Assembly (NCBI RefSeq): GCF_001565895.1
Contig: NZ_LSNE01000003.1
Span: forward strand, 707,184 to 771,183
Reading direction: 5' to 3'
From: Paraglaciecola hydrolytica
GTDB lineage: Bacteria > Pseudomonadota > Gammaproteobacteria > Enterobacterales > Alteromonadaceae
Length of the DNA stretch: 64,000 nt
Made by a program: the position numbers and the translations under genes. The notes beneath the pieces were generated by a model that saw only the letters and a list, made by a program, of their open reading frames with translations, made no database searches and was not told the origin of the DNA. Numbering within the stretch: the stretch's first letter is position 1; every line of letters starts with the position of its first letter. This document shows, piece by piece, positions 1-15,617 of the stretch.

Positions 1-1070
1 TCACCTTCACCGGCATAACTTTTAAACACCGTGCGATCGTTAACCCATTCGCGCGTGCTGCGTTCGATATTAGGGAACACTTCATTCACCTGATAAAAAC
101 CTAAGGTGATTGGTGCCGCTAGGGGTAACTTTTCGGCTTCGTAGCGTGCAAGTAGAGAGCCTATGCGCTCAGGCATATATTTTTCAATTAAGGCAAATAG
201 AGCGCCAGCTGTTTTGCTGTCTAGCTGACCATTCACCGACCAAGGCATAAAGTGCATTTGAAAGGCCGAGAGGGTATCCACAGTGGCACCATCATTAACA
301 GCGGTTTCGGTTATGCCATAACCATAGACGCGCAAGGCGGACTGCATAAGTCCAACGCTGACGGGCCTGTCATTAAACATTTGCCAGTATTTTTGCAAAG
401 TGTTGTTGTCGTACCAAGCGCCAATACCGGCTTGGTATAGTTGATACCAAGGAAAACGCGGGCCGGGGTCATTTTTGCGAGTAGGTGCAATATCTGAGTG
501 CCCTACTATGGCAGTTGGAGAGATATCCGGATTACGTTTTAGAATATCTTTGGATAACTTGATGAGTAATTCAATTTGTTTGGGATCATAGTCAGGAAAG
601 ATACATAACCTGCCTGCGTCATTTTCTCTTTTCTGAGTAGCGGTGCCAGCATTGTCTCGCATGCACTCAGGCACATTAACTATTTCAATACCAATGCTTT
701 GATCATTGAGATCTTCACGTCCTTGCCAGTGACTATTGCCTGCATGCCAGGCACGGCCTGATTCTGCTACTAGCTGAATCACTTTTAAATCGCCATCAGT
801 ATACGAAGGATCATGGCGCTCAGGGATTAAATAATGGGAGCTTAAACCTCCTTCCTCTACTAGTGCCTTCACTGATTTTTGATAATCAATGGCGGTGTAA
901 TGCATCACCAAAAATTTAATACGTTGGCTATAGTTTTTCGACTGCATATAGGAAATAGGCAGAGTGGCGCAGCTGATCAGCAGTACTGAAACACCACAGA
1001 TGAAAAGTAATCTAGAACTAAACATCATTTGTGCAGCTATCGCAGATAAAGGTTTAGTACACCATTGCAT
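1..1070 (-). CDS. amiD: AmiD-type N-acetylmuramoyl-L-alanine amidase lipoprotein (3' end outside window)
   Basis: Translated by eye from the minus strand. The N-terminus has a lipoprotein signal with lipobox LISC. An Amidase_2 domain follows, with FLVMHYTA and SSHYL near the start, then AWHAGNSHW, IGIEIVN and VGHSDIAPTRKNDPGPRF; the conserved His residues are zinc-ligand positions in the AmpD/AmiD family. A small peptidoglycan-binding-like segment (VDTLSAFQMHF) comes next. Family members cut the bond between MurNAc or anhydroMurNAc and L-Ala, here presumably at the outer membrane facing the periplasm. The start at 1070 has a GGAAA upstream; ATGs at 1028 and 1025 are in frame and also give a good signal peptide. 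E. coli AmiD has about 276 residues, while this reading frame is still open after 356, so there is an unidentified C-terminal extension cut by the window edge. Context fits peptidoglycan scavenging. Confidence 0.85.
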   Translation of the reverse strand, partial: MQWCTKPLSAIAAQMMFSSRLLFICGVSVLLISCATLPISYMQSKNYSQRIKFLVMHYTAIDYQKSVKALVEEGGLSSHYLIPERHDPSYTDGDLKVIQLVAESGRAWHAGNSHWQGREDLNDQSIGIEIVNVPECMRDNAGTATQKRENDAGRLCIFPDYDPKQIELLIKLSKDILKRNPDISPTAIVGHSDIAPTRKNDPGPRFPWYQLYQAGIGAWYDNNTLQKYWQMFNDRPVSVGLMQSALRVYGYGITETAVNDGATVDTLSAFQMHFMPWSVNGQLDSKTAGALFALIEKYMPERIGSLLARYEAEKLPLAAPITLGFYQVNEVFPNIERSTREWVNDRTVFKSYAGEG

Positions 1071-1538
1071 GAGAGTTTCCGGCTAAAGAATAAATAATTA
1101 TTAAAAACAATAAGCTAATGAATAATTATTCTACACATATTTTGCAGGTGATAGTAAGAAGTTTTGTTGATTAATTTCTAGCTAAAACTTACAAATTTTC
1201 CAGTATTCATCTAACTTAAAGCATGTCTAGAAGGAATTGCACTCGGCTTAGCTAGCTTTTTAAGCGAACGTATAATTTATTACTATTAATTGGAAATATT
1301 GGAAAATATTATTCTTGACGTGTCGGGTTATTGTTTGTTAAATGAAGTAGCTCCTTGGTATGTAGAGTGTCAGCAAAAGGTAGCGGTACGAAATAAGCAG
1401 GTAAACCGCTCAGAATATAATTAAAAAGAAATAACAGGTGGAACACATGTCAACTCAACACACAAATTTTATAAAAAGGCGCCTGCACCAGGCTCTCAGA
1501 AAAACATTCAGGTTTCATAGCTTACAAAGGGGAACATT
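1071..1538. other. Divergent intergenic region amiD / TonB receptor
   Basis: This AT-rich 468-bp region separates the divergent amiD and receptor genes. It contains a palindrome GAATAATTATTC at 1120-1131, a short direct repeat of TTGGAAATA-type sequence around 1290-1309, a good sigma70-like promoter at 1315-1343, and a long leader with a small ORF from 1447. No RNA gene was recognised. Confidence 0.6.
1315..1343 (+). promoter_or_regulatory. Predicted sigma70 promoter for the receptor leader
   Basis: A -35 TTGACG (1315-1320), a 17-bp spacer and a -10-like TTAAAT (1338-1343, 4 of 6 consensus bases) lie on the plus strand. A start near 1350 would give an untranslated leader of about 100 nt before the small ORF and about 190 nt before the receptor. 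Confidence 0.45.
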
Positions 1539-1542
1539 ATGA
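1447..1542 (+). CDS. Small 31-aa basic leader ORF, translationally coupled to the TonB receptor
   Basis: An ATG at 1447 is preceded by a strong Shine-Dalgarno AGGTGGA (1436-1442). The frame stays open for 31 codons and ends at TGA 1540-1542, which overlaps the receptor start ATG at 1539 in an ATGA arrangement. The peptide is rich in Arg, Lys and His, with no acidic residues, no obvious signal peptide and no membrane segment. A short GCCTG-CAC-CAGGC hairpin lies inside it at 1481-1493. The ribosome site and the ATGA overlap favour real translation and a role in coupling or controlling the receptor. No homologue is known to me, so the function is unknown. Confidence 0.5.
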   Translation: MSTQHTNFIKRRLHQALRKTFRFHSLQRGTL

Positions 1543-4520
1543 AAAATTCTTTACGATCTTCTTTACTGTTTGCATCGCTTCTGTCAGGAATGAATGCATA
1601 TGCTGCCCAGGTAGGTGAAATTGTAGGTAAAATTACTATGCCGGATGGCTCGCCACTTTCCGGTGTATCTATCGAGGTGAAGGGTGATGTACTGCCTAAA
1701 GCCCGCACGGTGACATCTAAATCCAACGGTAACTACCGACTACAATTATTGCCACCAGGTAATTATGAAGTCACTTTTACTTCGCCCAGTGGTGAAACGA
1801 GAAGCATCAGCATTGCAGTGCAACTTGATCAAAAGACACCGCTTAACATTCAACTCGGTTCTGCAGAGACTGAAAAAGTGGTTGTGTATGGTCAGGCTTT
1901 GACGACCTCTACAAATTCCGCTCTGGGTAATTCTCTGAGTGCCGATGCTCTGGCTGCCCTACCAACTGCCGTTGAATATAGCTCGCTGATTCGTTTAATG
2001 CCGGGTGTTCAGGTTACTTCAGACAGTGTGCGTGGACCAAGTGCCGGTGCTAGTGGTCAGGACAACGGATACAAATTTGATGGTGCAAACCTGTCTACTC
2101 CGTTATTCGGAATTTTGGCATCATCACCATCAACTCACGACGTTGCCCATGTTTCTGTTGAACGCGGTGGCGCCAGAGCCGTTGGTTTCAATCGAAATGC
2201 TGGTGTTACTCTGAATACTGAAAGTAAATCAGGTACCGATGAATTTAAAGGGGATGTATCCTATCGCCTGCAAAAAGGTTCATGGCAAGCGGATGACGAA
2301 GATGGTCTGAGTACGGAAGATGACATTGCCTACATTACTGTAGGTGCAGGTGGCCCACTTATCGAAGAACAGCTTTATTTCTATGGTTCGTACTATACGC
2401 GTGATGATTCAAAAGAAAGTGGCACAAACGCGCGCGGCTCGGTACCAAGTATTACTAACGAACGTGAAGAGTACTTCGGTAAGTTCACTTGGACGCCAAC
2501 TGAAGACATTCTGGTAAACGCAAGCTATCGCAATTCAGAAGTAAAGACCACTAACCAAGGCATCTTCGAAAATAATTCGGTGTCTACCGCATACGATGGC
2601 GTTAATGATTTTGAAGTGTTGATAATTGATGGATCGTGGATCATTAATGACAATACGACCTTAAACGTTTCATATGCCGATACCAAACAGTCTGCGGGCT
2701 CTTTCCCGATCAACAATTTAGGGTTTAACGGTCAGTCTGGTGACTCTTTGAACATAGCAGACTTGCCTTCACAGGGTTACTTTGTCGTGCCGTCTCTTGA
2801 AACCAGAACGGCAACTGATGCTAACGAACAAGCACTAATTGACGCCTACAATGCGGGTGCTGCGCCACTGATAGCAGCGCATGGTATCAACGGTGAAGCG
2901 CTGGGTGCTGTAGGTGCTTATTCGACAATCAACGACAACGCCTATTTAAGCAATAACTTTGAAATTTCGCTGGAACACGTGATTGAAACTGACAACACGA
3001 CCCATGAACTCTATTTTGGTTTTCAAGTAGAAGAAGGTTCAGAAGAACTTGATCGTGTTTCTAATGGTTGGGGCTCAATTTCCTATTGGGGAGGCATAGA
3101 CCAGGATGCCGGTGGTATTATCGCTCCGGGTACTGATACAGCTCCTGTCGGCACGGTTTATCGCGCAACCGTTCAAACTCGTGGCTTCAGTGAAGGCGGT
3201 CTGACCGGCTCATTGGTGTCAAAATCTAAGTCAAATACTTTTGCATTTAACGATACTATATACTGGGAGGACTGGATCTTTGATGCTGGCTTCTTAATCA
3301 GCCAGGACGAGATCTTTGGTCAAGGCTTACGCAAAGCCGACACTAGCTCTGGTTGGGAAGTAGCTCGTGGTGAGACTTATGTGATGAAAAAAGTTGGTTT
3401 CAGTGAAACATTCCAGCCTCGTTTAACGGCTACATGGGAATACAGTGATAGTGCCTCCGCGTTTGTAAGTTTTGCAAGATATAACCCTGCGGTAAGTTCC
3501 CTTGCTCGCGCGGCGTCTTGGGATCGTGCTACTGATGGCAGTACCACCTGGGTTTATTTTGATGAAAACGGCAACTATCTTGATTCTGAAACCAATATAT
3601 CTTCTACAGGTAAGCTGTTCGCAGATGGTCTTAAGCCAAGAACTTTGCAAGAGATTATGATTGGTCACCAAATGGCCTGGGACAATTCTTGGACAATTCG
3701 CAACCACCTTCGCTATCGTCGTACCTGGAATTACTGGGAAGATACCAACAACGACTCTCGAATCATTTATGATGCGGAGTACTACAAGGGTGCTTATGCC
3801 GGATTTGCAGAATTGTATCCGGATCTGGTTGCTGCAGCCAATGCAGGTGCGTTTGACTCACCAGATCCTAAAGACCTGTATATACCACTTAACAACTTGG
3901 TTGGCGAGCGTACTTATGTTATTGCTCAGTTGGATGGCGCCTTCACCAAGTATCTGGAAGCGAGTCTGGAAGTTGACTACAAGTCTGATAAGTTCTTTTC
4001 AACAACGTCATTGGTTTGGAGTCACTACTACGGCAACTTTGATCAGGATAACGCCACACGTTTCGACAATGACCAAGGTACATTCATTGGTTCTTCGAAC
4101 ATTGGAGACTCCTCTTACGGACAATTGTGGGGCAGCTTAACTTCAGGCGATCTGCGCGCAGATCGCACCTGGCAGTTTAAGAGCTTCGGTGCCTACGACC
4201 TTCCATGGAATGCATCGTTGGGTTATCTGGCTTACTGGCAATCTGGTCACAAATGGGAGCATCAATTTGCGAGTACCCAGTATCTGGAGACCCGTGGTAG
4301 CCGCGAAACGCCAAGTCATATGCAATTGGATTTGAACTATACCCAGAACTTTGACTTTTCAGAAGATTACGCTCTGAAACTGCGTTTGGACATATTCAAC
4401 GTATTTGATAAGCAAACTGGTTATAACCCTGAGCCACGCTATAACAGTTCGGCACTGGGCGAATACCGTAGCCATGAAAATCCGCGTCGTGTTCAGGCGA
4501 CCGTATCTTTAAGCTTCTAA
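1539..4520 (+). CDS. TonB-dependent receptor with N-terminal carboxypeptidase-regulatory-like domain
   Basis: A 993-aa outer-membrane receptor. It has a signal peptide of about 22 residues (ending AYA), a carboxypeptidase-regulatory-like beta-sandwich at about 27-105 (GKITMPDGSPLSGV, then SNGNYRLQLLPPGNYEV), a TonB-box-like EKVVVYG near 112, a plug domain (LPTAVEYSSLIRLMPGV) and a C-terminal beta barrel ending in aromatic FSLSF-type residues (VQATVSLSF). This layout is typical of large TonB-dependent oligosaccharide or peptide receptors in Alteromonadales, not of classic siderophore receptors. The start has AAAGGGG 6 nt upstream and overlaps the leader-ORF stop. Neighbours for MurNAc and GlcNAc release suggest that it imports peptidoglycan fragments; that substrate is an inference. 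A rho-independent terminator follows at 4543. Confidence 0.85.
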   Translation: MKNSLRSSLLFASLLSGMNAYAAQVGEIVGKITMPDGSPLSGVSIEVKGDVLPKARTVTSKSNGNYRLQLLPPGNYEVTFTSPSGETRSISIAVQLDQKTPLNIQLGSAETEKVVVYGQALTTSTNSALGNSLSADALAALPTAVEYSSLIRLMPGVQVTSDSVRGPSAGASGQDNGYKFDGANLSTPLFGILASSPSTHDVAHVSVERGGARAVGFNRNAGVTLNTESKSGTDEFKGDVSYRLQKGSWQADDEDGLSTEDDIAYITVGAGGPLIEEQLYFYGSYYTRDDSKESGTNARGSVPSITNEREEYFGKFTWTPTEDILVNASYRNSEVKTTNQGIFENNSVSTAYDGVNDFEVLIIDGSWIINDNTTLNVSYADTKQSAGSFPINNLGFNGQSGDSLNIADLPSQGYFVVPSLETRTATDANEQALIDAYNAGAAPLIAAHGINGEALGAVGAYSTINDNAYLSNNFEISLEHVIETDNTTHELYFGFQVEEGSEELDRVSNGWGSISYWGGIDQDAGGIIAPGTDTAPVGTVYRATVQTRGFSEGGLTGSLVSKSKSNTFAFNDTIYWEDWIFDAGFLISQDEIFGQGLRKADTSSGWEVARGETYVMKKVGFSETFQPRLTATWEYSDSASAFVSFARYNPAVSSLARAASWDRATDGSTTWVYFDENGNYLDSETNISSTGKLFADGLKPRTLQEIMIGHQMAWDNSWTIRNHLRYRRTWNYWEDTNNDSRIIYDAEYYKGAYAGFAELYPDLVAAANAGAFDSPDPKDLYIPLNNLVGERTYVIAQLDGAFTKYLEASLEVDYKSDKFFSTTSLVWSHYYGNFDQDNATRFDNDQGTFIGSSNIGDSSYGQLWGSLTSGDLRADRTWQFKSFGAYDLPWNASLGYLAYWQSGHKWEHQFASTQYLETRGSRETPSHMQLDLNYTQNFDFSEDYALKLRLDIFNVFDKQTGYNPEPRYNSSALGEYRSHENPRRVQATVSLSF

Positions 4521-4542
4521 AGGATTAGTGTTTGTAAATATG

Positions 4543-4869: not shown

Positions 4870-6756
4870 ATGATTTTGGGGAAGATAGTGTTTTTAATAA
4901 ATAAAGTGTTTCTGATATTGGCATTATTAACAACCGTCTCATGTGCGATGAAACCTACAGCAGATCCGCATCTAAACCGCTTAATTGCTCAAAAACTGAT
5001 GCTGGATATTCGTTATTATTGTGCTGATGCCAAAGCAGATGAAAACTGCACTACGCCAGTGACAGCTTTGCCACCAGCCTTAAGTCAGATGCTCACTGAT
5101 ACAGGTATTGGTGGTGTGGTGTTGTTTGCCAACAATCTTGAAAATACTCAGCAGATGTTGCAACTCAATTATGCCCTGCAACAAGCCGCACAGCGTGGTG
5201 GCCACTCCCCTCTATTTATCGCTATCGATCAAGAAGGTGGTCGAGTAGTTCGAATTCCGCAAAATTTAGCGACTTCATTTGCCGGTAATATGGCGATTGG
5301 TGCAACTTATAAACAGTATGGTACCAAGTATGCGCAACAAAGCGGCGAAATCTTTGCCAAAGAGCTACTTGCTTTAGGTTTCAACGTGAATTTTGCTCCT
5401 ACTGTTGATGTAAACGTTAACCCTTTAAACCCGGTGATTAATGTTCGCTCATACGGTGAAGATGCCAATATGGTGGCGCAGTTGGGTACGGTGCAAATGG
5501 CTGCCATGCAAAGCCAAGGTATGATGGCTACGCTTAAACATTTCCCTGGTCACGGTGATACCAGTGTCGATAGCCACACCGGTTTACCTCGGGTTGATCA
5601 TGCTTTGAGTCAAATCGAAAATACCGACTTATTACCTTTTCAATATGCCATTGATAATGATGCGCCAGCGATGATCATGACGGCGCATATTCAGTATCCA
5701 CAACTGGATAACAGTGAATTTATCGCTAAAGACGGTAGCAAGGTTATTTTGCCTGCGACTATGTCACGAGCGATTCTGACTGACTTGCTACGTAATAAAA
5801 TGGGTTTTAAAGGAGTGATAGCTACCGATGCTTTGAATATGGCAGGTATAGCGCATTATTTTGATGAAACCGAAGCGGTAATCCAAACCTTTGCGGCTGG
5901 CTCAGATATCGCGCTGATGCCTATAGCCATTCGCAGTCCAGCGAATATTGCCAAAGTAACAGCACTGATCAATGACGTAGCCAAGGCTGTGCGCTCTGGT
6001 CGTTTAAGCAGGCAAGAATTCGAAAGGTCTGCTCAACGTATTAACCATCTTAAGCACCAATATAATATTGCGCAGTTTTATATGCAGCCCTTGGAACAAG
6101 CAGTGGTAAAAGCCTCAGATATCTTAGCTGCTCCACAACATCGTATGGTCGAGCAGGAACTAGCAGACCATGCCATTGTTGAGATTAAAAATCAGGGCGC
6201 TTATCCATTAGCGAATAAAGTTAAAAATATCCTATTAAGCATGCCCGACACCACTAAATGTATGGCTTTTACCCTCGCCTTAAAAAATCGTTTAAGTGGT
6301 GCCAATGTCAATTGTCTCAGTTTGGCACACGCAGATAAGTCAGCCAATATGACCGCACTTAAACAGGCCGATGTGGTGATCGCCGCAGACATCTCTCCCG
6401 ACCAAAGTTTGGCCGAGTTAGGTGGTATGGATGATATTGTTAATTGGCGCCAACGTGCGCCCAAAGAGCAACAGATCACTCAGCAGTTAGCGCTACTGCA
6501 AGCCGCAAAAGCCCAGCAAAAAACCACTATTTTTGTTAGCTTACGCACTCCCTATAACACGCCGCAGTTTGCTCAATATGCCGATGCTGTATTGGCCACT
6601 TTTTCCTACAACTTAAATAAAACCGAACACATGGATGATCACGGACGTATGGTTATCCAATATGAGGGAGCTATTTATAACGCGCTGGCAGATATATTGA
6701 CTGGGCGTAAAACTGCCAGTGGTTCTTTGCCAGTATCGGTTGATTGGAAAAACTAA
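4870..6756 (+). CDS. nagZ: Exported two-domain beta-N-acetylhexosaminidase, GH3 (NagZ/YbbD type), lipoprotein
   Basis: A 628-aa GH3 protein. It begins with a lipoprotein signal peptide (lipobox TVSC, Cys near residue 25). The GH3 N-terminal barrel carries IDQEGGRV, NVNFAPTVDV, KHFPGHGDTSVDSH (about 222-236, holding the His of the NagZ-type Asp-His dyad) and IATDALNMAG (catalytic Asp near 320). A GH3 C-terminal-like domain covers about 430-628. One-domain cytoplasmic NagZ of enterics is about 340 aa; this length and the lipid anchor match Bacillus subtilis NagZ (YbbD). Predicted reaction: release of terminal beta-GlcNAc from peptidoglycan fragments or chitooligosaccharides in the periplasm or at the membrane. 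The ATG at 4870 is accepted because it gives the signal peptide, though its ribosome site is weak. The nagX gene starts one base after the stop. Confidence 0.9.
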   Translation: MILGKIVFLINKVFLILALLTTVSCAMKPTADPHLNRLIAQKLMLDIRYYCADAKADENCTTPVTALPPALSQMLTDTGIGGVVLFANNLENTQQMLQLNYALQQAAQRGGHSPLFIAIDQEGGRVVRIPQNLATSFAGNMAIGATYKQYGTKYAQQSGEIFAKELLALGFNVNFAPTVDVNVNPLNPVINVRSYGEDANMVAQLGTVQMAAMQSQGMMATLKHFPGHGDTSVDSHTGLPRVDHALSQIENTDLLPFQYAIDNDAPAMIMTAHIQYPQLDNSEFIAKDGSKVILPATMSRAILTDLLRNKMGFKGVIATDALNMAGIAHYFDETEAVIQTFAAGSDIALMPIAIRSPANIAKVTALINDVAKAVRSGRLSRQEFERSAQRINHLKHQYNIAQFYMQPLEQAVVKASDILAAPQHRMVEQELADHAIVEIKNQGAYPLANKVKNILLSMPDTTKCMAFTLALKNRLSGANVNCLSLAHADKSANMTALKQADVVIAADISPDQSLAELGGMDDIVNWRQRAPKEQQITQQLALLQAAKAQQKTTIFVSLRTPYNTPQFAQYADAVLATFSYNLNKTEHMDDHGRMVIQYEGAIYNALADILTGRKTASGSLPVSVDWKN

Positions 6757-6757: not shown

Positions 6758-7960
6758 ATGTTTAGGTTGTTAAGATCACATTGCCAGTCGATTTTAGCCA
6801 ACCAGCCAATTAATCGTCTGCTGGCACTGGATGTGTTTCGCGGTATCACTATTACCGCGATGATCTTAGTTAATAACCCTGGCAGTTGGCAGTATATTTA
6901 TGCCCCGATGAAGCATGCAGACTGGCATGGCTGGACTTTAACCGACTTAATATTTCCGTTTTTTATTTTTATTGTTGGTATCGCTATTACCTTATCAGGC
7001 ACCAAACAGCTTGAACAAGGCAAGAGCCGTGGCTCGATACTAAAACATGCGGCACTGCGAATGGTAAAGCTGATCTTGCTCGGCTGGTTTCTAGCCTTGT
7101 TTTATTACAACTTTACTGCAGACAGTTACAACTGGATAGAACAGCGTTTATTGACCATGCGTTTTATGGGGGTGCTACAGCGTTTGGCTTTGGTGTATTT
7201 TGCCTGTGTGCTGTTGTGGTTATATTTATCTAATCGTTTATTGCAAATGTCCTTTGTTGTTTTGTTAGTAGGCTATTGGATGACATTGTGGTTTATCCCT
7301 TACCACGATGTTTTGGGTAAACCCTATTTGGGGCTAATGGAGTTTGGCAACAATCTGAGTGCTTGGCTTGATAGCCAATTGTTTAATCCTCAACATTTGT
7401 ATTATAAAACCGCCCAGCCCTTTGCCTTTGATCCTGAAGGGGTGCTGAGTACCCTACCCGCCATTGCGACAGGATTGTCGGGTATTTTTGTAGGTCAATG
7501 GTTAAGCAAGCCAAATTTTAACAACCTTGCTAAAGCCAAATGGCTACTACTCGTTGGTATTATAGCAGTAGGACTCGGCGAATTATGGGGTCTATATTTT
7601 CCTATCAATAAAGCCTTGTGGACCTCAAGTTACGTGTTACTTTCGTCGGGTTATGCCTGCGTCATGTTGGCTGCCTTGATTTACCTACTGGATTGCAAAA
7701 ATATTAAAAATTGGAGCGCACCTTTTGTGGTGTTTGGTGCCAATAGCATCGCCTTTTTTATGTTTGCCGGTGTAGTAGCGCGCTTGCTGATTATGATCCC
7801 TGTGGCTGATAGCAGTTTAAAAGGCTGGTTGTATACGCAAGTTTTTCAACCTGCCTTTGGAGAGTTTAATGGTTCTCTGGCTTTTGCCATCGGATTTTTA
7901 ATCATGTCTTATGGGGTGATGTACGTTATGTATCGCCGTGGGCTTTTTTGGAAAGTGTAG
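6758..7960 (+). CDS. nagX: NagX family inner-membrane protein (DUF5009 / heparan-alpha-glucosaminide acetyltransferase-like)
   Basis: A 400-aa polytopic membrane protein with about 10 membrane spans. The signature LLALDVFRG is followed by ILVNNPGSW and LTDLIFPFFIFIVG, characteristic of the NagX/COG4299 family related to lysosomal HGSNAT. In Shewanella chitin/GlcNAc regulons NagX is a predicted amino-sugar uptake or acetylation component; its biochemistry is not settled. The ATG at 6758 comes one base after the nagZ stop, indicating co-transcription. A start at 6719 overlapping nagZ is possible but would add residues before the conserved part. Paired with NagZ it probably handles GlcNAc, MurNAc or a disaccharide at the inner membrane; a direct transport role is inferred. 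Confidence 0.85.
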   Translation: MFRLLRSHCQSILANQPINRLLALDVFRGITITAMILVNNPGSWQYIYAPMKHADWHGWTLTDLIFPFFIFIVGIAITLSGTKQLEQGKSRGSILKHAALRMVKLILLGWFLALFYYNFTADSYNWIEQRLLTMRFMGVLQRLALVYFACVLLWLYLSNRLLQMSFVVLLVGYWMTLWFIPYHDVLGKPYLGLMEFGNNLSAWLDSQLFNPQHLYYKTAQPFAFDPEGVLSTLPAIATGLSGIFVGQWLSKPNFNNLAKAKWLLLVGIIAVGLGELWGLYFPINKALWTSSYVLLSSGYACVMLAALIYLLDCKNIKNWSAPFVVFGANSIAFFMFAGVVARLLIMIPVADSSLKGWLYTQVFQPAFGEFNGSLAFAIGFLIMSYGVMYVMYRRGLFWKV

Positions 7961-8155
7961 GAGACCATCACATCAAGTTACTTGAATAATAATTTTTCAA
8001 TAAATAGGTGAATAAAATATTACGGCTATAATTTGACATTAACATCAAAAAAAAACACGCAAAACCAAGATAACTAGCTGATTTCTATTTATTAACAACG
8101 GAGGCTTAGGTTACACTTATTCCAAGTTTAAAAATAAAATATTTTATGAGTGTCG

Positions 8156-9004
8156 ATGTCTACTTTTACCAAAATTAAGGCCTTAAAAGGTTCTTTATCC
8201 AGTAGTGAACTTAAGTTAGCTAAATTTGCCCTTGATTCATCCAATGTAATCCGTGAGCTGTCTTCCCAAGAATTAGCCAATGTGGTGGGTGTTAGTCAGT
8301 CCAGCGTAGTTAAGTTCGCGCAAAAGTTGGGTTATAAGGGGTATCCCGCTTTTAAATTGGGGATTATTGATGCCCTCAATCATGCGACCACTAATAACAA
8401 CCTGCATGGTAAAATTACCATTAACGACAGTTTCAGTCAGATGTCGGATAAATTATTAAGCAGCAAAATTTCGGTATTAAGCGAAACGCAAAAACTTAAT
8501 GACGAAAAGGCCTTTTTGGCGGCCGTCGAATTACTGAAATCAGCGAAACGCATACTGATTTGTGGTTTGGGTGGCTCTGCGTTAGTGGGCAAAGACTTCT
8601 CTTATAAACTACAGAAGTTAGGTATGTTAGCCATAGAAGAGCCAGATACCCATGCCCAATTGGCCTTTGCTGCGACGTTAACAAGCAATGATTTGGTTTT
8701 TGCCATCAGCGAATCTGGCACCACTAAAGAGATAGTTAATGTAGTCACTCAAGCTAAACGTAATAACTGCAAAATAATCTCCATTACCCGTTACGGCAGT
8801 AATCCTATCTCTGATATGGCAGACGTTAAGTTGTACTCCATCGCTGATGAAGAATCCGCTCGTTTATCTTCTATTTTGGCCAGAACCGCACAAGAATTTA
8901 TCATCGATATCTTGTTTATCGCCATTACCCAGTCGTCGCGCCAAGGCAGGCAAATATTGGAAAAAACCAATACAGTCGTGGGTGAGTTTAGGCGTTTGTC
9001 TTAG
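8156..9004 (+). CDS. RpiR/MurR-family transcriptional regulator (HTH + SIS)
   Basis: About 282 aa. The N-terminal HTH_6 domain (residues 1-75) contains SSQELANVVGVSQSSVVKFAQKLGYKGYPAF, quoted here only as a landmark by its ends SSQEL and YKGYP. A SIS sugar-phosphate-binding domain follows (about 120-260) with ILICGLGGSALVGKDF and FAISESGTTKEIV. Proteins of this family sense phosphosugars; E. coli MurR responds to MurNAc-6-P. The ATG at 8156 is chosen; a GTG two codons upstream (8150) is equally possible and neither has a strong ribosome site. The gene converges with namZ-murQ-symporter and follows nagZ-nagX, so it is the likely local regulator of MurNAc/GlcNAc release genes. The effector is inferred. 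Confidence 0.85.
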   Translation: MSTFTKIKALKGSLSSSELKLAKFALDSSNVIRELSSQELANVVGVSQSSVVKFAQKLGYKGYPAFKLGIIDALNHATTNNNLHGKITINDSFSQMSDKLLSSKISVLSETQKLNDEKAFLAAVELLKSAKRILICGLGGSALVGKDFSYKLQKLGMLAIEEPDTHAQLAFAATLTSNDLVFAISESGTTKEIVNVVTQAKRNNCKIISITRYGSNPISDMADVKLYSIADEESARLSSILARTAQEFIIDILFIAITQSSRQGRQILEKTNTVVGEFRRLS

Positions 9005-9103: not shown

Positions 9104-10285
9104 TCAAAAATCAGGATAGAGTAAATAAGGCAAACGTTGTTGTTTAAATGCCTGCAAACCTGTTTGCCAACTTTGTTGGATTTGCTCAAGGCTTTGGCCT
9201 TGTTCGATGGCGAGGCGTAATTTGTCGGTACCGGCCAGTTTGTCCATAAAATCTGCGCGTTCGAAAAAACGCAAACCTTGTTGGGTAAATTGTTGATAGG
9301 CGCTGATGAACAAGCTTAAATCTAAGCCTTGTATGTCGCTGTTACGCAAATCGATACCCATTGATAGCTTGCCTTCAAGCTTAGGGTGTAGGGATGCGCC
9401 AGGACGTGATTCTGGGCTAAATTCAAAACTACCAAGTGCAACAGTGTCATGCCCCATTACCTGAAACGGAAAGTCGGTGCCTCTGCCAATGCTCACTGGT
9501 GTTGCTTCAAAAAAACATAAGGATGGATATAACTGGATTGATTGGCTGTTAGGTAAGTTAGGGCTGGGTGCTATGGGTAGCTCATAGGTCATATCTCGGC
9601 TGTAATGGGTATTACTGATGGTACTTAGTTTTAAGTCATTAGCCTGATTTATCCAGCCTTCGCCTTTAATCATTAAGGCCAGCTCAGCGACCGTCATACC
9701 GTGTAATACGGGGATGGGGTGCATGCCGACAAAAGACTGAAATTGTGGATCTAAAATCGGGCCATCAACAAACTTGCCATTAGGGTTGGGTCTGTCAAAC
9801 ACCATAAACTCGACACCCGTTTCGGCGGCGACTTCCATCATATAGTGCATGGAACTGATGAAAGTATAAAAGCGTACACCTACATCCTGAATATCAAAAA
9901 TTATTACATCCAGTTCAGCCATCAGCTCTGGATCAGGTTTTTTGTTCTTGCCATAAATCGACGTAATAGCAATGCCCGTAAGGCTGTCGACGTCGTTGTT
10001 AACATGGGCGCCAGCATCATGATCACCACGAAAACCATGTTCTGGGGCAAAAACTCTAGTGACCTTAATGTTGTTAGCCAACAAATAATCCAGCAGATGT
10101 TGCTCACCTACGCGGGATGTTTGGTTAACTACCAAGCCCACTCTTTTGTTTTGTAATAGAGGTAAATACAGCTCGCTGCGCTGTGCCCCTACTTGTATTT
10201 TGGCGGCACTAATCTTTTGTGAACAGGCAGATAATCCAAGGACTAGCAACAAAACGACGCAAAATTTGTGGAATAAGTGAGTCAT
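9104..10285 (-). CDS. namZ: NamZ-type exo-beta-N-acetylmuramidase (DUF1343, GH171), lipoprotein
   Basis: A 393-aa protein with a lipoprotein signal (LGLSAC, Cys21) and a full DUF1343 domain: KRVGLVVNQTSRVG, VFAPEHGFRG (Glu82), SIYGKNKKPDPELM, FDIQDVGVRFYTF, DRPNPNG and GRGTDFPFQ. The DUF1343 founder, B. subtilis YbbC/NamZ, splits terminal MurNAc from the non-reducing ends of peptide-free peptidoglycan strands, and sits beside nagZ, amiE and murQ. The same functional set surrounds this gene. It starts 3 bp after murQ ends, so the two are one operon. Action with the exported GH3 NagZ would trim glycan chains alternately to GlcNAc and MurNAc. Assignment of family is firm; enzymatic activity is inferred from family and context. 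Confidence 0.9.
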   Translation of the reverse strand: MTHLFHKFCVVLLLVLGLSACSQKISAAKIQVGAQRSELYLPLLQNKRVGLVVNQTSRVGEQHLLDYLLANNIKVTRVFAPEHGFRGDHDAGAHVNNDVDSLTGIAITSIYGKNKKPDPELMAELDVIIFDIQDVGVRFYTFISSMHYMMEVAAETGVEFMVFDRPNPNGKFVDGPILDPQFQSFVGMHPIPVLHGMTVAELALMIKGEGWINQANDLKLSTISNTHYSRDMTYELPIAPSPNLPNSQSIQLYPSLCFFEATPVSIGRGTDFPFQVMGHDTVALGSFEFSPESRPGASLHPKLEGKLSMGIDLRNSDIQGLDLSLFISAYQQFTQQGLRFFERADFMDKLAGTDKLRLAIEQGQSLEQIQQSWQTGLQAFKQQRLPYLLYPDF

Positions 10286-10288: not shown

Positions 10289-11212
10289 CTATGCGATTTT
10301 AGCTTGTACGGCTTTACGTAAAAAGCCATGGTGCTGTTGTAACGACGCCACAGCATCTGCAGCGCTGACACCGGTGAGTATCATCATGATGGCGACTTTG
10401 GCTTCATTACCCGCCTGTTGCATCGCTTGAGTTGCTGTTTCCTCGTCGCAGTCTGTCGCTTGCATCACTATCAGTACCGCTCTGGCATAGAGTTTTTCGT
10501 TACTGGCGTTTACGTCAACCATCAAGTTTTGATAGGTTTTGCCAATGCGGATCATGCTGGCAGTGCTTAACATATTAAGAATGAGTTTTTGTGCGGTACC
10601 CGATTTCATGCGGGTTGAGCCGGTAAGTATTTCTGGGCCTACCGCTGCGCAAATTTCAACATCGGCCTCTTTACCAATCGCTGAATTAGGGTTGCAACTA
10701 ACTGATACACTTTTAGCGCCAATTTCACGGGCATACTTAAGTGCAGAAATAACATAGGGGGTACGGCCACTGGCAGCGATACCTACTAAGACATCTTTGG
10801 CATTGAAGTTAATGGCTTTTAAGTCGGCAATGGAAGCGCTTTGATTATCTTCAGCACCCTCAACCGCACGTTTAATCGCTTTTTCTCCGCCAGCAATAAT
10901 TCCTATCACCATGTTTTCGTTAACGCTGAAGGTTGGCATGCATTCAACTGCATCGAGTATACCTAAACGGCCACTGGTACCGGCGCCCAAATAAATAAGT
11001 CGCCCTTGTTGCTGAAAGGCTTCAACAATAAAATCCACTGCCTTGCCAATACTGGGTAAGGCCGGTTTGATAGCCAAGGCAACTTTTTGATCTTCATCGT
11101 TAATTTTTTGAAGGATCTGTTCGGTGGTTAACAAATCTATATCTAAAGTATCGTTATTACGGGTTTCAGATAATATCGAGTGGAGTTCGTTCAAAAGTGG
11201 ATTTCGATTCAT
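10289..11212 (-). CDS. murQ: N-acetylmuramic acid 6-phosphate etherase MurQ
   Basis: A 307-aa SIS-fold etherase that converts MurNAc-6-P to GlcNAc-6-P and D-lactate in the cytoplasm. It shows the MurQ features: LLTTEQILQKINDED at the N-terminus, LGAGTSGRLGILDAVEC (Glu90, at the position of the general acid in E. coli MurQ), GAEDN, a SIS motif GIAASGRTPYV, and GPEILTGSTRMKSGTAQK. Length matches the family (about 300). It lies between the symporter (100 bp upstream) and namZ (3 bp downstream), all on the minus strand. Its substrate must be phosphorylated, yet no PTS transporter or kinase gene is found nearby. Confidence 0.95.
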   Translation of the reverse strand: MNRNPLLNELHSILSETRNNDTLDIDLLTTEQILQKINDEDQKVALAIKPALPSIGKAVDFIVEAFQQQGRLIYLGAGTSGRLGILDAVECMPTFSVNENMVIGIIAGGEKAIKRAVEGAEDNQSASIADLKAINFNAKDVLVGIAASGRTPYVISALKYAREIGAKSVSVSCNPNSAIGKEADVEICAAVGPEILTGSTRMKSGTAQKLILNMLSTASMIRIGKTYQNLMVDVNASNEKLYARAVLIVMQATDCDEETATQAMQQAGNEAKVAIMMILTGVSAADAVASLQQHHGFLRKAVQAKIA

Positions 11213-11312
11213 TATTTTTTCACTTTAGCTGGAATTTTATTTGTTCAATGTGGGTAGTGTATTTTAATTCCCAGATAGAACCTACTTAGTCGTTACATTG
11301 ATCGTTTTGGCG

Positions 11313-12890
11313 TCAAGTCTCAGTGGCTGAGAGTGTATTCTGTGCATGACTCTTACCGCTACTACAAATTAAAAATGCCACGATTGTGCCTACACATAGT
11401 TGCCAGGTAAAGCCGAGGTCAAATACCCACGCTTGGGGTAGAAACAAAGCCATGACATAAGGCTGAAACATCAGTGTTAGGATAAAACCGCCAAGTAAGG
11501 CGGCCAATACACTATGTTGATTGCCACGTTGAGTAAACAGCACGGTAAAATACACACCTAATAAACCGCTATATGAAAACACCATGACACTTAAGGCAAA
11601 TTGCAGCAAAGGCATATCAGAATGTTGTTGCCAGAAATAACATAAACAGGCCATGGCCGACAGGGCTAGAGCGACTATCAACATGCCAAACTGCCCCGCT
11701 TTTACAAAGTGTTTATCATCAATATCTTTGTTAACGCGTTGACGCCAAGGGCGATACAAATCTTGTACTATCACCGAAGACATCGAATTAAGGCCAGAAT
11801 TTAAGGTAGATAAAGCCGCTGCCACTATACCAACAGTGACTAGAGCTTTGACTCCTGCTGGGATCTCATTTAATACGTAATACATAAAAATGGTCACCGA
11901 CTCACCTTGAAAACTCGGTACAATTTTATTGCCGCCACTGTGCATAATGTCGGGGCGGTCGTAATAGATATACAGCAGCAAACCTATGCTGATAAATACC
12001 AGCATAACGGGTATCACCATTAGCACAGAATAGATCATGGCTTTGCTGCCTTCGCGGGCATTTTTACAGGTTAATACTCGTTGAGTCATATCCTGATCCA
12101 AACCGAAAGCGGCAATGTTAAGTAATACAAAACCTGTGAGTACCGACCAGAAGTTAAAAACGCCGGCTGAAGAGAAATCCAGCGCAAAATTGAAAAACCT
12201 CAGTTTAGAATTTTGCCCTTCACCTGGCTCAGCCAAGGCATGATAAATAGTGCTTAAATCGGCGGGTATTGCGGCAAACAAAAAATAGACGACGGTGATC
12301 GCAGCTCCAACATAAATACTACATTGCAGCACATCACTGTAGATAACTGAACGAATTCCACCGTAAACCGTATACAACAAACCACAGGTAGCTATCAGTA
12401 AGATCGCTATAATGACGTGTGAACTCGCGATATCACCAAAGAGGATCATGGAAATGGCGATGGCCGCCATGTATAAACGCGCACCACTGGCAAAAATACG
12501 ACCAAATAAATACATGGTGCCTGCATATCGTTTAGCCGCCGCGCCAAAACGTTTTTCCAGTAATTCGTAAACGGTAAACACTTGTTGTTGGTAAAAGCGT
12601 GGTATTAAAAAATAAGACACAAAAAAAGCAGCGATGAGGGCGCCAATATTGGACGTAAGATAGGAAAAATCGCCACGATAACCCTGATCAGGGCCACCTA
12701 AAAAAGTGGCTGCAGATTGTGAGGTGGCTAATACGGAAATGGCCACCACCCACACAGGCATACTGTTACCACCGAGAAAATAATCTTTGCTGTTGGCTGA
12801 GCTACGATTAAAAAACCAGCCCGAACCTAGCAATAATAAGCCATAAGCCGCAAAAACCAGCCAGTCTAAGCTTGTATATTGCTCGAGCAT
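11313..12890 (-). CDS. SSS-family sodium:solute symporter, likely for MurNAc or related sugar
   Basis: A 525-aa membrane protein with about 13-14 hydrophobic spans. SSF-family signatures include DYFLGGNSMPVWVVAIS, TSQSAATFLGGPDQGY and YTVYGGIRSVIYSDVLQ. The family couples Na+ to uptake of sugars, amino acids or vitamins. First gene of a minus-strand unit with murQ and namZ, so MurNAc or a peptidoglycan-derived sugar is the best substrate guess. That is context inference; sequence alone does not fix the substrate. It shares a 207-bp divergent promoter region with alr. Use of a symporter instead of a PTS means that imported MurNAc would arrive unphosphorylated. Confidence 0.85.
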   Translation of the reverse strand: MLEQYTSLDWLVFAAYGLLLLGSGWFFNRSSANSKDYFLGGNSMPVWVVAISVLATSQSAATFLGGPDQGYRGDFSYLTSNIGALIAAFFVSYFLIPRFYQQQVFTVYELLEKRFGAAAKRYAGTMYLFGRIFASGARLYMAAIAISMILFGDIASSHVIIAILLIATCGLLYTVYGGIRSVIYSDVLQCSIYVGAAITVVYFLFAAIPADLSTIYHALAEPGEGQNSKLRFFNFALDFSSAGVFNFWSVLTGFVLLNIAAFGLDQDMTQRVLTCKNAREGSKAMIYSVLMVIPVMLVFISIGLLLYIYYDRPDIMHSGGNKIVPSFQGESVTIFMYYVLNEIPAGVKALVTVGIVAAALSTLNSGLNSMSSVIVQDLYRPWRQRVNKDIDDKHFVKAGQFGMLIVALALSAMACLCYFWQQHSDMPLLQFALSVMVFSYSGLLGVYFTVLFTQRGNQHSVLAALLGGFILTLMFQPYVMALFLPQAWVFDLGFTWQLCVGTIVAFLICSSGKSHAQNTLSATET

Positions 12891-13097
12891 GTTTACCTAC
12901 CCAAAGTCTATTTTGATTAAATTTAGAATATATTATTCATTAATTGTTGTATACAAAGAAATAATAATTGACTGATGATCAGCAAATAATGTGGTTTTTT
13001 GTCCTTTCGCAGTGACTTTCAGATGTATTGCTATTAACAGTCAACCATTTAATAGTTTATTCTCGTTCATTAAATATTTTTAGTAGGTAAACAGGCT
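12891..13097. promoter_or_regulatory. Divergent promoter region, symporter-murQ-namZ / alr
   Basis: This AT-rich region has an imperfect palindrome GAATA-TAT-TATTC at 12926-12938, similar in form to GAATAATTATTC near amiD (1120-1131). It may be a shared operator, but AT-rich sequence produces such matches easily. Confidence 0.35.
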
Positions 13098-14168
13098 GTG
13101 CTGGGCAGACAAACATTCGCAACAATCAATCTAAAGGCGCTACAACATAATTTTAGTGTTATGTCTCAATGTGCTTTAGGCAGTAATACTATAGCCGTGA
13201 TTAAGGCAGATGCCTATGGACATGGCGCTCAACAAGTTGCCCAAGCATTAGCATCACAAGCCAAGGTTTTTGCTGTGGCCTTTATCGATGAAGCCTTGGC
13301 ATTGCGTGAGCAAGGTATAACTCAAGCCATTTTATTGCTTGAAGGAGTCATGAGCGAAGATGAAATGGCTTGTGCCAAACAGCATAACTTTTGGGTAATG
13401 TTGCATAGTGTTGAGCATTTCAGTTGGTTGCGGGCACTAGAAAAAAATCAACGCCCTGTTTTTTGGATTAAAGTTGATAGTGGCATGCATCGTTTGGGCA
13501 TTAGCTTGCAAGATGCAGATGTAGTACTCAAGGCTAATCAAGACTTAATTCAGCCTGATACTGTGCTGTGCAGTCATCTAGCTTGTGCCGACGAGCTACA
13601 AAATTCGCTAAACCTTAAGCAAATGGGAATATTACGTGATCTTGCCAAGGCCTACAATTTGCCTTTGAGCATGGCAAACTCGGCAGGTATTGCGAACTGG
13701 CCTGATACCCACGCTAAGTGGAATCGATTAGGGATTGCTCTGTATGGTTGCGCTCAGCCAGCGGATGCTAAGGCAGGTTTGTTGCCTGTAATGAGTTTAC
13801 ATGCCCCCATTATTGGACTGCGTAACATTGGAGTGGGTGAATCTGTAGGTTATGCGCAGAGCTGGACGGCAACACGGCCGACAACCATTGCTACCCTAGC
13901 CATAGGTTATGCAGATGGTTATCCACGTCATGCAAAAACAGGTACGCCTGCTTGGATACATGGCCAGCGAATTTCTTTAGTGGGTCGGGTATCTATGGAT
14001 ATGATTACTCTTGATGTCACAGATTTACCCCAGGTGCAGATCGGCGACAGTGTTGAGTTGTGGGGCGAAAACATCTTAGTTGAAGAGGTGGCATTAAATG
14101 CGTCGAGCATTTCTTATGAGCTACTAACTCGTATTTCCCCTCGGGTAAAACGCCGCTACATCAAGTAA
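13098..14168 (+). CDS. alr: Alanine racemase
   Basis: A 356-aa PLP enzyme interconverting L- and D-alanine. The PLP lysine lies in AVIKADAYGHG (Lys36); further family landmarks are HRLGIS, RLGIALYG, VGYAQSW (catalytic Tyr region near 255), ATLAIGYADGYPRH, VGRVSMDMITLDV and the C-terminal YELLTRISPRVKRRY. Length is normal. The start is a GTG at 13098 with TAGG about 10 nt upstream. It is divergent from the symporter-murQ-namZ unit. A racemase here could turn D-Ala freed from stem peptides into L-Ala for catabolism, in addition to any biosynthetic role. A convergent hairpin at 14191 separates it from the NhaC-type gene. Confidence 0.95.
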   Translation: MLGRQTFATINLKALQHNFSVMSQCALGSNTIAVIKADAYGHGAQQVAQALASQAKVFAVAFIDEALALREQGITQAILLLEGVMSEDEMACAKQHNFWVMLHSVEHFSWLRALEKNQRPVFWIKVDSGMHRLGISLQDADVVLKANQDLIQPDTVLCSHLACADELQNSLNLKQMGILRDLAKAYNLPLSMANSAGIANWPDTHAKWNRLGIALYGCAQPADAKAGLLPVMSLHAPIIGLRNIGVGESVGYAQSWTATRPTTIATLAIGYADGYPRHAKTGTPAWIHGQRISLVGRVSMDMITLDVTDLPQVQIGDSVELWGENILVEEVALNASSISYELLTRISPRVKRRYIK

Positions 14169-14190
14169 GCATAATTAAGTGAGCTCAATA

Positions 14191-14218
14191 GTGCTTAACC
14201 TGCTAACAGGCTAAGCAC
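14191..14218. terminator. Hairpin between convergent alr and NhaC-type gene
   Basis: GTGCTTA-A-CCTG-CTAA-CAGG-C-TAAGCAC forms a near-perfect 28-nt hairpin between two converging genes. There is no strong T-run on either side, so it is a weak intrinsic terminator at best or an mRNA 3'-end structure. Confidence 0.5.
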
Positions 14219-14237
14219 GCAGAGTATAAAAACTGTC

Positions 14238-15617
14238 TTAAGCAATCATGATTACGCTAGCGACAGTGTAAGCAATGATACTTAATCCCCCAGCAAATAA
14301 AGCATAAGGCATTTGGGTTTTAACGTGGGTTAATAAATCACAGCCCGCTGCTATTGATGAAATAGCCGTGGTATCAGAAATAGGTGAGCAATGATCACCA
14401 AATACCCCACCACCTAATATCGCCGCGATAACTAATGACGGCGGTAAACCTAAGGATTGGATCAAAGGTACGCCGATGGGCACTAATATGGCAAACGTAC
14501 CCCACGAGGTACCGGTCGTAAACGACATGATCCCGCCTGCGATAAACAGCATAGGCGCCACCAATATTAATGGTAAGTAATCACCAACTAGCCCAGCCAC
14601 AAATACCCCAGTACCTAGGGTTTTTAAGCTGGCTCCTAAGGTGAGTGATAACAAAACAATAGTCACGACAGGTAATAATTCACCAATTCCTTTAAAACCT
14701 AAGTGCACCACTTCTTGATGAGTAAAGCGTTTGTGCCAAATTAACAATAAGTACGCCACCACACAGGCCAAAAAGGTGGAATACAACACGGATTTAGTGC
14801 CACTACCTTGAATTAAACTGCCATTACCTGTCCATAACATAAAAGCAATCATGCCAAAAATCATGACGGCCAAAGGTAGTAACATAAAACGCGCTTTAGT
14901 GGGGGCCGCACTCTCAAGCTCTTGATTAGTGGTTGCGCAGTTTTTTTCTGCTTCACGCATTGGCCCGTGTACTTTGTCTTTGGCGATGGTGTAGGCAACC
15001 ACAGCCAATGTGATAAGGGCATAAAAGTTTAAGGGGATGGTGCCAACTAAAATGCTTACCGGTGTGTCGTCGCCCAAGTCATAATTGCTTAAAAGACCAA
15101 TAACTAATGCACCCCAGCCGTTTAATAGGATCAGAATACAAACCGGTGCGCTGGTACTGTCAATAATATAAGCCAGTCGTGCTCTACTCATTTTGTATTT
15201 ATCAAATAAACCGCGCGCTAGTATACCTGCCGTTAAGACACTTAAATTCGATTCGATAAAGACCGCAATACCGGTAAACATGGTCAGTGAGCCAACCTGT
15301 CTTTTACTTTTAGCGATACCTTTGCTGATGAGTAAATTGACGGTAGCGGCAACACCACCGGAATCACGGATAAAGGCCAGTAAGGCGCCCACTAATAAAC
15401 TAAACAGTAATACTCTGGCGTTGCCAGGATCACTGACTATCGAAACAATCTGTTCAATAGAATTAATTGGCGTCATCCACAAAGACTGCTCTGGCAGTCC
15501 AATTAGGGTAATCAGCTCCGCGCTGATAATGGCCATAAATAAAGCCAAGATGACTTCTTTTTTCCAGAAAACCACCACGATGGCGACTATAGGGGGGATA
15601 ATTGAATATGCGTCCAT
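14238..15617 (-). CDS. NhaC-family Na+/H+ antiporter-like transporter
   Basis: A 459-aa protein with about 11-12 membrane spans: SIIPPIVAIVVVFWKKEVILAL at the start, SNLSVLTAGILARGLFDKY, FTTGTSWGTFAILVPIGVPL and GGGVFGDHCSPISDTTAISS. These are hallmarks of the NhaC/YuiF-type branch of the ion transporter superfamily, in which some members exchange Na+ for H+ and others move amino acids or organic acids. It converges with alr. Given the D-Ala and lactate chemistry of the locus, an amino-acid or lactate exchange role is possible, but that is speculation; the family call is secure. Confidence 0.85.
   Translation of the reverse strand: MDAYSIIPPIVAIVVVFWKKEVILALFMAIISAELITLIGLPEQSLWMTPINSIEQIVSIVSDPGNARVLLFSLLVGALLAFIRDSGGVAATVNLLISKGIAKSKRQVGSLTMFTGIAVFIESNLSVLTAGILARGLFDKYKMSRARLAYIIDSTSAPVCILILLNGWGALVIGLLSNYDLGDDTPVSILVGTIPLNFYALITLAVVAYTIAKDKVHGPMREAEKNCATTNQELESAAPTKARFMLLPLAVMIFGMIAFMLWTGNGSLIQGSGTKSVLYSTFLACVVAYLLLIWHKRFTHQEVVHLGFKGIGELLPVVTIVLLSLTLGASLKTLGTGVFVAGLVGDYLPLILVAPMLFIAGGIMSFTTGTSWGTFAILVPIGVPLIQSLGLPPSLVIAAILGGGVFGDHCSPISDTTAISSIAAGCDLLTHVKTQMPYALFAGGLSIIAYTVASVIMIA

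Follow-up and report, generated by a model that had tools for sequence, protein, structure and literature searches.

A 27.5-kb locus of Paraglaciecola hydrolytica, running from a YkuD-like gene to an NhaC gene (C3:695278-722800, C3 being contig NZ_LSNE01000003.1 of a 5.22-Mb genome in 20 contigs), is with good probability a peptidoglycan utilisation locus. The gene families, the motifs, the lipoboxes, a conserved neighbourhood and kinase-MurQ fusions in relatives were observed directly. The window, that is the whole stretch of 64,000 nucleotides analysed (C3:707184-771183), was found to cut the locus at its edge, so that about 12 kb of it lies to the left. The ten genes named in the original prediction were all recovered at the coordinates of Table 1 from the open reading frame (ORF) list, Pfam and NCBIfam. 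The description of the locus as complete failed for the window, from which a kinase for N-acetylmuramic acid (MurNAc) is missing, and nearly held for the whole locus, which contains a NagK-like kinase of predicted substrate. The proposed scavenging of peptidoglycan was partly supported and remains the best reading, and was strengthened because the kinase, an NlpC/P60 protein, a dipeptide epimerase and a second S12 protein were found left of the window.

The amidase gene was found to leave the window and to continue to C3:705749, giving a product of 834 amino acids (aa) with Amidase_2, PG_binding_1 and a C-terminal PF00144 domain of S12 serine-peptidase type (Pfam). Residues 40-298 matched AmpDh3 (PDB 4bxd, E 1.6e-67) and AmiD (2bh7, E 1.1e-45). 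The product contained the motifs VMHY, GHSDIAPTRKNDPG, SNTK, YSDTDY and GHTG, with SNTK, YSDTDY and HTG as the S12-type motifs of the PF00144 part. It is thus a lipoprotein with amidase and peptidoglycan-binding domains and not a plain AmiD, the S12 domain being fused to its C-terminal end. The predicted lipid anchors were recovered as the lipoboxes LISC in the amidase, TVSC at the N-terminal end of NagZ and LSAC in NamZ. NagZ was also found to be the two-domain Bacillus-type lipoprotein of glycoside hydrolase family 3 (GH3) that had been claimed, with a GH3 N-terminal domain, a C-terminal domain aligned to YbbD and the motif KHFPGHGDTSVDSH (KxFxGH). Its best PDB match was YbbD of B. subtilis (3bmx, E 5.7e-95, residues 35-580), and its C-terminal PF01915 domain scored 24.6 bits, under the cut-off of 31. 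In NamZ, a member of family GH171 of which no second copy was found in the genome, both Pfam domains were over their cut-offs (NamZ_N 253.7 bits, cut-off 26.9; NamZ_C 100.2 bits, cut-off 25), and E82, H83, D131, D134, D164, E201 and E260 were the same in all 141 rows of the alignment. The symporter of the SSS (sodium/solute symporter) family and MurQ were found to be adjacent (window 10289-12890), as in murTKQ-type operons.

The same genes were found to cluster around NamZ in other genomes. NamZ was present in 145 of 295 genomes and 25 of 52 genera of the family (here a grouping that includes Pseudoalteromonas and Pseudidiomarina) and absent from 150 genomes, and was present in 25 of 369 genomes sampled over the class, of which two belong to the family. 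From 148 NamZ matches listed, 61 loci were read and 87 were left out; the 61 consisted of 60 fetched stretches (58 genomes, all 25 genera with a match) and the own locus (L002), which ends inside NamZ, so that its MurQ, SSS, Alr and NhaC genes stand outside the label, adjacency and order counts. Several stretches were short (11.5 to 18.4 kb), and labels were given to BLAST matches at E 1e-10 that covered half of the query, so that distant homologues escape them. As controls, 18 stretches were taken, one from each of 18 of these genomes, starting at base 1,000,001 (one at 2,000,001). MurQ was labelled in 53 of the 61 loci, NagZ in 48, SSS in 44 and RpiR in 42, followed by the MurQ-linked kinase type in 31 (fused to MurQ in 6), a FAD/Fe-S 2-hydroxyacid-dehydrogenase-like protein in 23, the amidase in 18, NlpC/P60, NagX and NhaC in 16 each, and the fusion-type S12 domain in 15. 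NagA, NagB and a family of 441-aa proteins were labelled in 12 each, NagP and Alr in 11 each, M14 and DUF819 in 10 each, the epimerase and D-glutamate cyclase in 7 each, and each 5-oxoprolinase subunit in 6. All these labels were absent from the controls (0/18), with one-sided Fisher p from 6e-12 (MurQ) to 0.046 (Alr) and 0.15 (epimerase). The clustering is therefore beyond chance, and accidental clustering of the core genes was rejected. The most constant feature was the adjacency of NamZ and MurQ on the same strand (52/61). The symporter was found beside MurQ or its linked kinase in 42 loci, as SSS-(kinase)-MurQ-NamZ, with the kinase in 28 (5 of them with kinase and MurQ fused) and without it in 14.

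In the scheme proposed from these genes, every substrate, the direction of transport, the regulation and the foreign origin of the wall are predicted from sequence. The receptor would carry fragments of peptidoglycan, either glycan strands or muropeptides, through the outer membrane, and lipid-anchored and periplasmic enzymes would dismantle them, starting at their ends. Stem peptides would be stripped by the amidase half of the fusion, NagZ would remove terminal N-acetylglucosamine (GlcNAc) and NamZ then the exposed terminal MurNAc, after which the cycle would repeat. MurNAc would be imported by the symporter, phosphorylated by the BadF-family kinase and converted as MurNAc-6-phosphate to GlcNAc-6-phosphate and D-lactate by MurQ. 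Cutting of the stem peptides may fall to the NlpC/P60 protein and the S12 domains, with a possible part for the YkuD-like and PBP-fold (penicillin-binding-protein-fold) proteins, followed by conversion of L-Ala-D-Glu by the epimerase and handling of D-Ala by the alanine racemase, whereas the RpiR-type regulator would sense an amino-sugar phosphate.

Of the BadF-type kinases in the genome, three scored over the cut-off of the family, all of them in the NagK-like clade of the tree, so that the locus kinase is a MurNAc kinase candidate by its position, with GlcNAc as a possible substrate. No kinase was found between the symporter and MurQ in this genome; the locus has its NagK-like kinase at a distance of about 19 kb. 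The match of this kinase to MurK of Tannerella was weak (PDB 8oqw, E 9e-7), and the kinase tree did not support taking it for a simple orthologue of the MurQ-linked type. A MurQ-linked kinase of another locus (L060) matched a MurNAc/GlcNAc kinase (8zo3, E 8e-18). Kinase and MurQ were found in one protein in six of the 61 loci (L042, L051, L053, L056, L062 and L076) and also in L184 beyond them; these proteins contain 614-642 aa with the BadF-type kinase at the N-terminal end, and L053 was found to carry both Pfam domains. The fusion is likely a bifunctional MurNAc kinase-etherase, and the fusions tie that kinase clade to MurNAc. Two congeners with a MurQ-linked kinase (G117 and G141; L204 and L205) were found to have no NagK-like kinase after the second S12 gene, and the two kinase types look complementary across seven genomes; in a further congener (G004) the stretches read contained neither of them. 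The third BadF-type kinase of the own genome (L115, C3:454558 region) stands beside NagB/NagA-like genes, and an ORF nearby resembles a tryptophan-halogenase-type flavoprotein, as judged by eye without a family search.

The receptor was found to match no TonB, Plug or outer-membrane-barrel Pfam model, and matched only CarboxypepD_reg and similar domains. Its fold model was of low confidence (mean pLDDT 56); the 50 PDB matches listed for that model were all titled TonB-dependent outer-membrane transporters (best E 1.4e-15), and one of 15 aligned homologues matched PF25183 (OMP_b-brl_4), on which grounds the protein is read as a TonB-dependent transporter. One weak paralogue was found in the genome (29% over residues 4-397). 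The SusC and SusD families were unmatched among the locus proteins scanned, so that this is not a polysaccharide utilisation locus (PUL) of SusCD type, and it would work like a PUL with another type of receptor. The receptor was labelled in 12 of 15 loci of the genus Paraglaciecola, and two of the other three were short stretches (11.5 and 13.5 kb). In the named loci, a pattern-selected list of at least 80, it was present among the matches listed in 14 of 20 Pseudoalteromonas and 9 of 9 Pseudidiomarina loci.

Several results weigh against the reading of the locus as one for peptidoglycan utilisation. The loci counted come from related genomes and the Fisher p-values are uncorrected; the epimerase (7/61 vs 0/18 controls) was not significant (p 0.15). 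A crude lipobox pattern was seen in 30 of 46 NagZ, 35 of 60 NamZ and 17 of 18 amidases, so that lipid anchoring is not universal. A shared RpiR operator was not found: in 33 gaps from Paraglaciecola, 37 from Pseudoalteromonas, 15 from the Rheinheimera group and 29 from Pseudidiomarina, exact-palindrome counts were no better than those of shuffled sequence, with the exception of GAATAATTATTC. The locus kinase groups with two paralogues, at C3:1144362 and C3:454558, that are located in GlcNAc clusters, and scored 289.7 bits for the GlcNAc kinase NagK_SO3507 (NF046058), under the cut-off of 370 that the NagK equivalog requires. Tannerella MurK was unmatched in the PDB search with the L060 kinase at E 0.001, which makes L060 no close MurK orthologue. 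A receptor of any kind, in a looser search within the fetched stretch, was found in 23 of 61 NamZ loci vs 3 of 18 controls (one-sided Fisher p 0.08). No second MurQ over the family cut-off and no second alanine racemase were found in the genome, so that those of the locus must serve other duties too, the racemase probably as a housekeeping enzyme. These sole copies, together with an AnmK elsewhere in the genome that would feed the same MurQ, fit a locus that mainly recovers own turnover products lost to the periplasm or the medium rather than foreign walls, and MurNAc recycling of the own wall is reported for B. subtilis and other Gram-positives (PMC5061867). That explanation is improbable. 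The genome was found to contain AmpD, AnmK and a NagZ without signal sequence (cytosolic) outside the locus, beside which recycling would need neither exported copies nor an outer-membrane receptor, and the absence of NamZ from 150 of 295 family genomes is unlike a housekeeping function. AmpD, AnmK and a cytosolic NagZ form the usual recycling set of Gram-negative bacteria, and its separate presence makes the exported enzymes and the receptor point to scavenging.

Another glycan (such as chitin or chito-oligosaccharides) could be the main substrate, with the MurNAc genes as passengers. The NagZ-type GH3, NagX and NagK-like kinases belong to GlcNAc metabolism too, the two other NagK-like kinases of the genome stand beside NagB/NagA-like or GH20/MFS-like genes (neighbours named by sequence), and a receptor-symporter-RpiR-hexosaminidase cluster serves oxidised chitin in Pseudoalteromonas (PMC9537276). 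This explanation is highly improbable, because NamZ, MurQ, the amidase, NlpC/P60 and the epimerase-type gene belong to families that act on peptidoglycan and its products and not on chitin, and because the NamZ-MurQ adjacency was the most constant feature. The receptor may also have an unrelated uptake function and stand beside the MurNAc locus by accident. Receptors of any kind were weakly enriched overall, and their types were found to differ among loci, being Oar-like in 14 of 61 and of Plug/barrel type in others. The Oar-like receptor was nevertheless found to keep its position in Paraglaciecola and Pseudoalteromonas despite differing surroundings, and one palindrome was conserved among congeners in the divergent gap between amidase and receptor, which leaves an accidental neighbour unlikely. 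The predicted tie between receptor and NamZ thus held as a regular association in some lineages and not as a constant partnership; the recurring receptor-nagZ-namZ-murQ neighbourhood was recovered for MurQ and NagZ and, in some lineages, for the receptor, and a universal receptor-NamZ link was not supported.

The closest experimental system to a peptidoglycan utilisation locus of this kind is murTKQ of Tannerella forsythia, and the closest layout in print is the murein PUL of Urechidicola. The Tannerella operon contains MurT of the SSS superfamily, the PF01869 kinase MurK and MurQ, of which MurT and MurK rescue E. coli on MurNAc (PMC5790795), and the MurNAc-specific pocket of MurK is S133-P134-L135 (PMC10465942). 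It resembles the NamZ loci in combining a sodium-symporter-family transporter, a kinase and MurQ (PMC5790795, PMC7670621, PMC10465942), in an order like that of the loci with a MurQ-linked kinase, and Tannerella also has NamZ1 and NamZ2. The Tannerella system serves an organism auxotrophic for MurNAc, and its cluster includes a homologue of AmpG, whereas here NamZ adjoins MurQ and an outer-membrane receptor, the amidase-S12 fusion and a lipoprotein NagZ are present. The PUL of Urechidicola, a symbiont of the Bacteroidota, is SusCD-linked and contains GH171; the paper annotates it and measures transcripts (PMC10199937). Both loci contain an outer-membrane receptor (TonB-type SusCD pairs there, a putative TonB-dependent transporter here), murQ, a sodium co-transporter, nhaC, GH3, GH171, an L-Ala-D/L-Glu epimerase (putative here) and an ampD-type amidase, and the PUL of Urechidicola also contains a D-Ala-D-Ala carboxypeptidase. 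That PUL has SusCD with DeoR in place of the Oar-like receptor with RpiR, alone contains ampG, nagB, GH18 and GH10, and belongs to another phylum. The ong cluster of Pseudoalteromonas prydzensis is similar in general layout, with a TonB receptor (putative here), a hexosaminidase, a sodium-type inner-membrane transporter and a MurR/RpiR regulator; it differs in serving oxidised chito-oligosaccharides and in the use of GlcNAc1A without initial phosphorylation, and mutants of its transporters in strain ACAM 620 were the same as wild type in MurNAc medium (PMC9537276). Peptidoglycan has been treated as a deep-sea nutrient (PMC11044484), and a paper on a Pseudoalteromonas that preys on Gram-positive bacteria gave no match to any of six terms, among them MurNAc, TonB and transporter (PMC6962226).

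In B. subtilis, nagZ, namZ, amiE, murR and murQ form a MurNAc-rescue cluster with uptake by a phosphotransferase system. Two-domain NagZ (3bmx), NamZ, an RpiR-type regulator and MurQ were found to be shared with it, and AmiE is presumably of the PF00144 family, like the C-terminal half of the fusion. B. subtilis is Gram-positive and without an outer membrane, whereas a symporter and a kinase stand here in place of the phosphotransferase system. The claim that no such system had been described in Alteromonadales stood within the open-licence PMC literature searched and has to be narrowed, since a SusCD-linked murein locus and murTKQ are already in print. The parts are known, and the combination and the lineage appear to be undescribed within that literature.

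The chances are about even that the locus is one version of a general peptidoglycan-feeding system of marine Alteromonadales. Such a system would combine exported exo-acting enzymes and the amidase-S12 fusion, by which the walls of other bacteria would yield sugars and D-amino-acid peptides, with MurNAc kinases that can stand in for one another, be they of a dedicated clade, of that clade in fusion with MurQ, or a substitute derived from NagK. To these would be added lineage-specific outer-membrane receptors, a new family of PBP-fold serine hydrolases, and attached routes by which D-lactate, L-Ala-D-Glu and D-glutamate are handled. If true, an external feeding route would be added to the usual picture of Gram-negative bacteria, in which muropeptides are met through recycling. 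The bacterial cell wall is a large marine source of carbon, nitrogen and D-amino acids, the eaters and genes of which are poorly known, and the locus offers a defined set of genes that can be tested in cultivable genera; in one of these, genes can be deleted in P. prydzensis, a species in which MurNAc has already been assayed. Further gains are a kinase clade tied to MurNAc by fusion, a possible route of D-glutamate disposal beside related loci, and a PBP-fold family that is without a Pfam model and without a relevant NCBIfam model.

Table 1. Features of the locus; plain numbers are window positions.
Feature	Position	Strand	Basis
Amidase-S12 fusion, N-terminal part (lipoprotein signal, Amidase_2, PG_binding_1)	1..1070 (ORF 3-1070)	-	Pfam
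Receptor, Oar-like, 993 aa, N-terminal carboxypeptidase-regulatory-like domain	1539..4520	+	Pfam, fold model
NagZ, lipoprotein GH3 beta-N-acetylglucosaminidase, two-domain Bacillus type	4870..6756	+	Pfam, PDB match
NagX-like membrane acetyltransferase-family protein	6758..7960	+	NF046061 196.6 bits, under cut-off 480
RpiR/MurR-family regulator with SIS domain	8150..9004	+	Pfam; NCBIfam equivalog matches all under cut-off
NamZ, lipoprotein, exo-beta-N-acetylmuramidase family	9104..10285	-	Pfam, PDB 4jja E 5.9e-110
MurQ, MurNAc-6-phosphate etherase	10289..11212	-	TIGR00274 416.6 bits, cut-off 302
SSS-family sodium/solute symporter, candidate MurNAc importer	11313..12890	-	TIGR00813 184.5 bits, cut-off 184
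Alanine racemase Alr	13098..14168	+	TIGR00492 329.9 bits, cut-off 168
NhaC-family carrier, putative	14238..15617	-	PF03553
Second S12 protein (S12b), S12 and DUF3471	C3:704158-705738, left of fusion		Pfam
Small protein	left of S12b		no Pfam match
EamA transporter	left of window		Pfam
FAA-hydrolase-like protein	left of window		score under cut-off
441-aa protein, PBP fold (probable)	L002:2589-3914 (own genome, left of window)		no Pfam match
BadF-family kinase, NagK-like (step missing from window)	C3:698652-699557
NlpC/P60 protein with SH3 domain	left of kinase		Pfam
Enolase-superfamily dipeptide epimerase	left of NlpC/P60		best NCBIfam L-Ala-D/L-Glu epimerase NF041118, 258 bits, cut-off 500
Lipoprotein with GCTS motif, read as YkuD-like	locus left end (C3:695278)		no Pfam or NCBIfam match

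The start of NagX is likelier the ATG at 6758 than the opening of the ORF at 6719. The 441-aa protein was found to have a confident fold model (pLDDT 90.4), the best Foldseek matches of which were a class A beta-lactamase-type protein (6z22, E 5.4e-7) and PBP-A (2j7v, E 3.8e-6), with query TM of about 0.3-0.37. The protein contained SxxK, SxN-like and KxG motifs of PBP type, and SSSK (140-143), SN (191-192) and KxG (369-371) were invariant in 18 of 18 aligned homologues. No Pfam match and one stray NCBIfam match (E 0.0089) were found for the 18 members searched. On the strength of the model and motifs it is probably a PBP-fold serine hydrolase, and nothing here bears on drug resistance. Its family was found near NamZ in the own locus and in 11 further sampled loci.

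The run of the fusion, S12b, NagK-like kinase, NlpC/P60, epimerase and YkuD-like genes was found to recur in three of four congeners without a MurQ-linked kinase whose flank was read (L197, L198 and L200), with one extra ORF of 122 aa inside the run of L198. In the fourth (G004; L199), S12b was followed by EamA-, FAA-like and ATP-synthase-like genes without a kinase; the EamA and FAA-like genes, being common to G004 and the own genome, may be a lineage-specific addition. In the own genome an ATP-synthase operon was recognised by eye, without a family search, beyond the YkuD-like gene.

Among the matches listed, the whole run was found in 9 of 20 Pseudoalteromonas loci (L123, L125, L128, L130, L131, L134, L135, L136 and L186) as the 441-aa protein, NlpC/P60, epimerase, YkuD-like, SSS and kinase genes, followed by MurQ, NamZ, the Oar-like receptor, RpiR, the amidase-S12 fusion and NhaC. 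Partial runs were found in L126, L133, L137, L141, L142 and L178. The compact locus L135 is carried by P. prydzensis DSM 14232, and we take ACAM 620 and DSM 14232 to be the same type strain. All nine Pseudidiomarina loci among the matches listed (L138-L140, L143-L147 and L191) contained a NagK-like kinase beside NagA/NagP, together with the 441-aa protein, SSS, MurQ, NamZ, RpiR, dehydrogenase, M14, NagZ and receptor genes. Five other Pseudoalteromonas loci (L122, L124, L127, L129 and L132) contained NamZ and an S12 gene only, without MurQ in the stretch; four of them also have NhaC, and their NamZ forms a separate tree branch. In the Rheinheimera-type loci L157, L161, L162 and L164 the symporter was found beside NamZ, without MurQ in the stretch.

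Transfer of NamZ from Bacteroidota was rejected as a candidate. In a FastTree tree of 81 rows the 20 rows of Bacteroidota (support 97) and the 56 rows of Pseudomonadota (low support of 55) were each set apart by a single branch, so that no recent transfer was seen.

The gap between amidase and receptor (window 1071-1538) was found to contain a palindrome, GAATAATTATTC, which was present in the same gap of congeners also and is a possible operator. As a shared operator it was rejected: its count exceeded that of shuffled sequence, yet all four labels were the one amidase-receptor gap of congeners, so that its occurrences are not independent sites.

A D-glutamate cyclase was found near NamZ in L038, L042, L053, L056, L057, L065 and L085 and 5-oxoprolinase subunits in six loci, which possibly form a route of D-glutamate disposal linked to peptidoglycan use. 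The FAD/Fe-S dehydrogenase, which is roughly 960 aa long and was found at L085:5486-8365 and near NamZ in 22 more of the sampled loci, is a candidate oxidiser of the D-lactate released by MurQ; no relative was matched in the own genome, an empty answer that alone shows little. Directly right of the locus a receiver-GGDEF protein was found (window 16226-17188), and GGDEF genes were present in 4 of 61 sampled NamZ stretches, possibly by chance.

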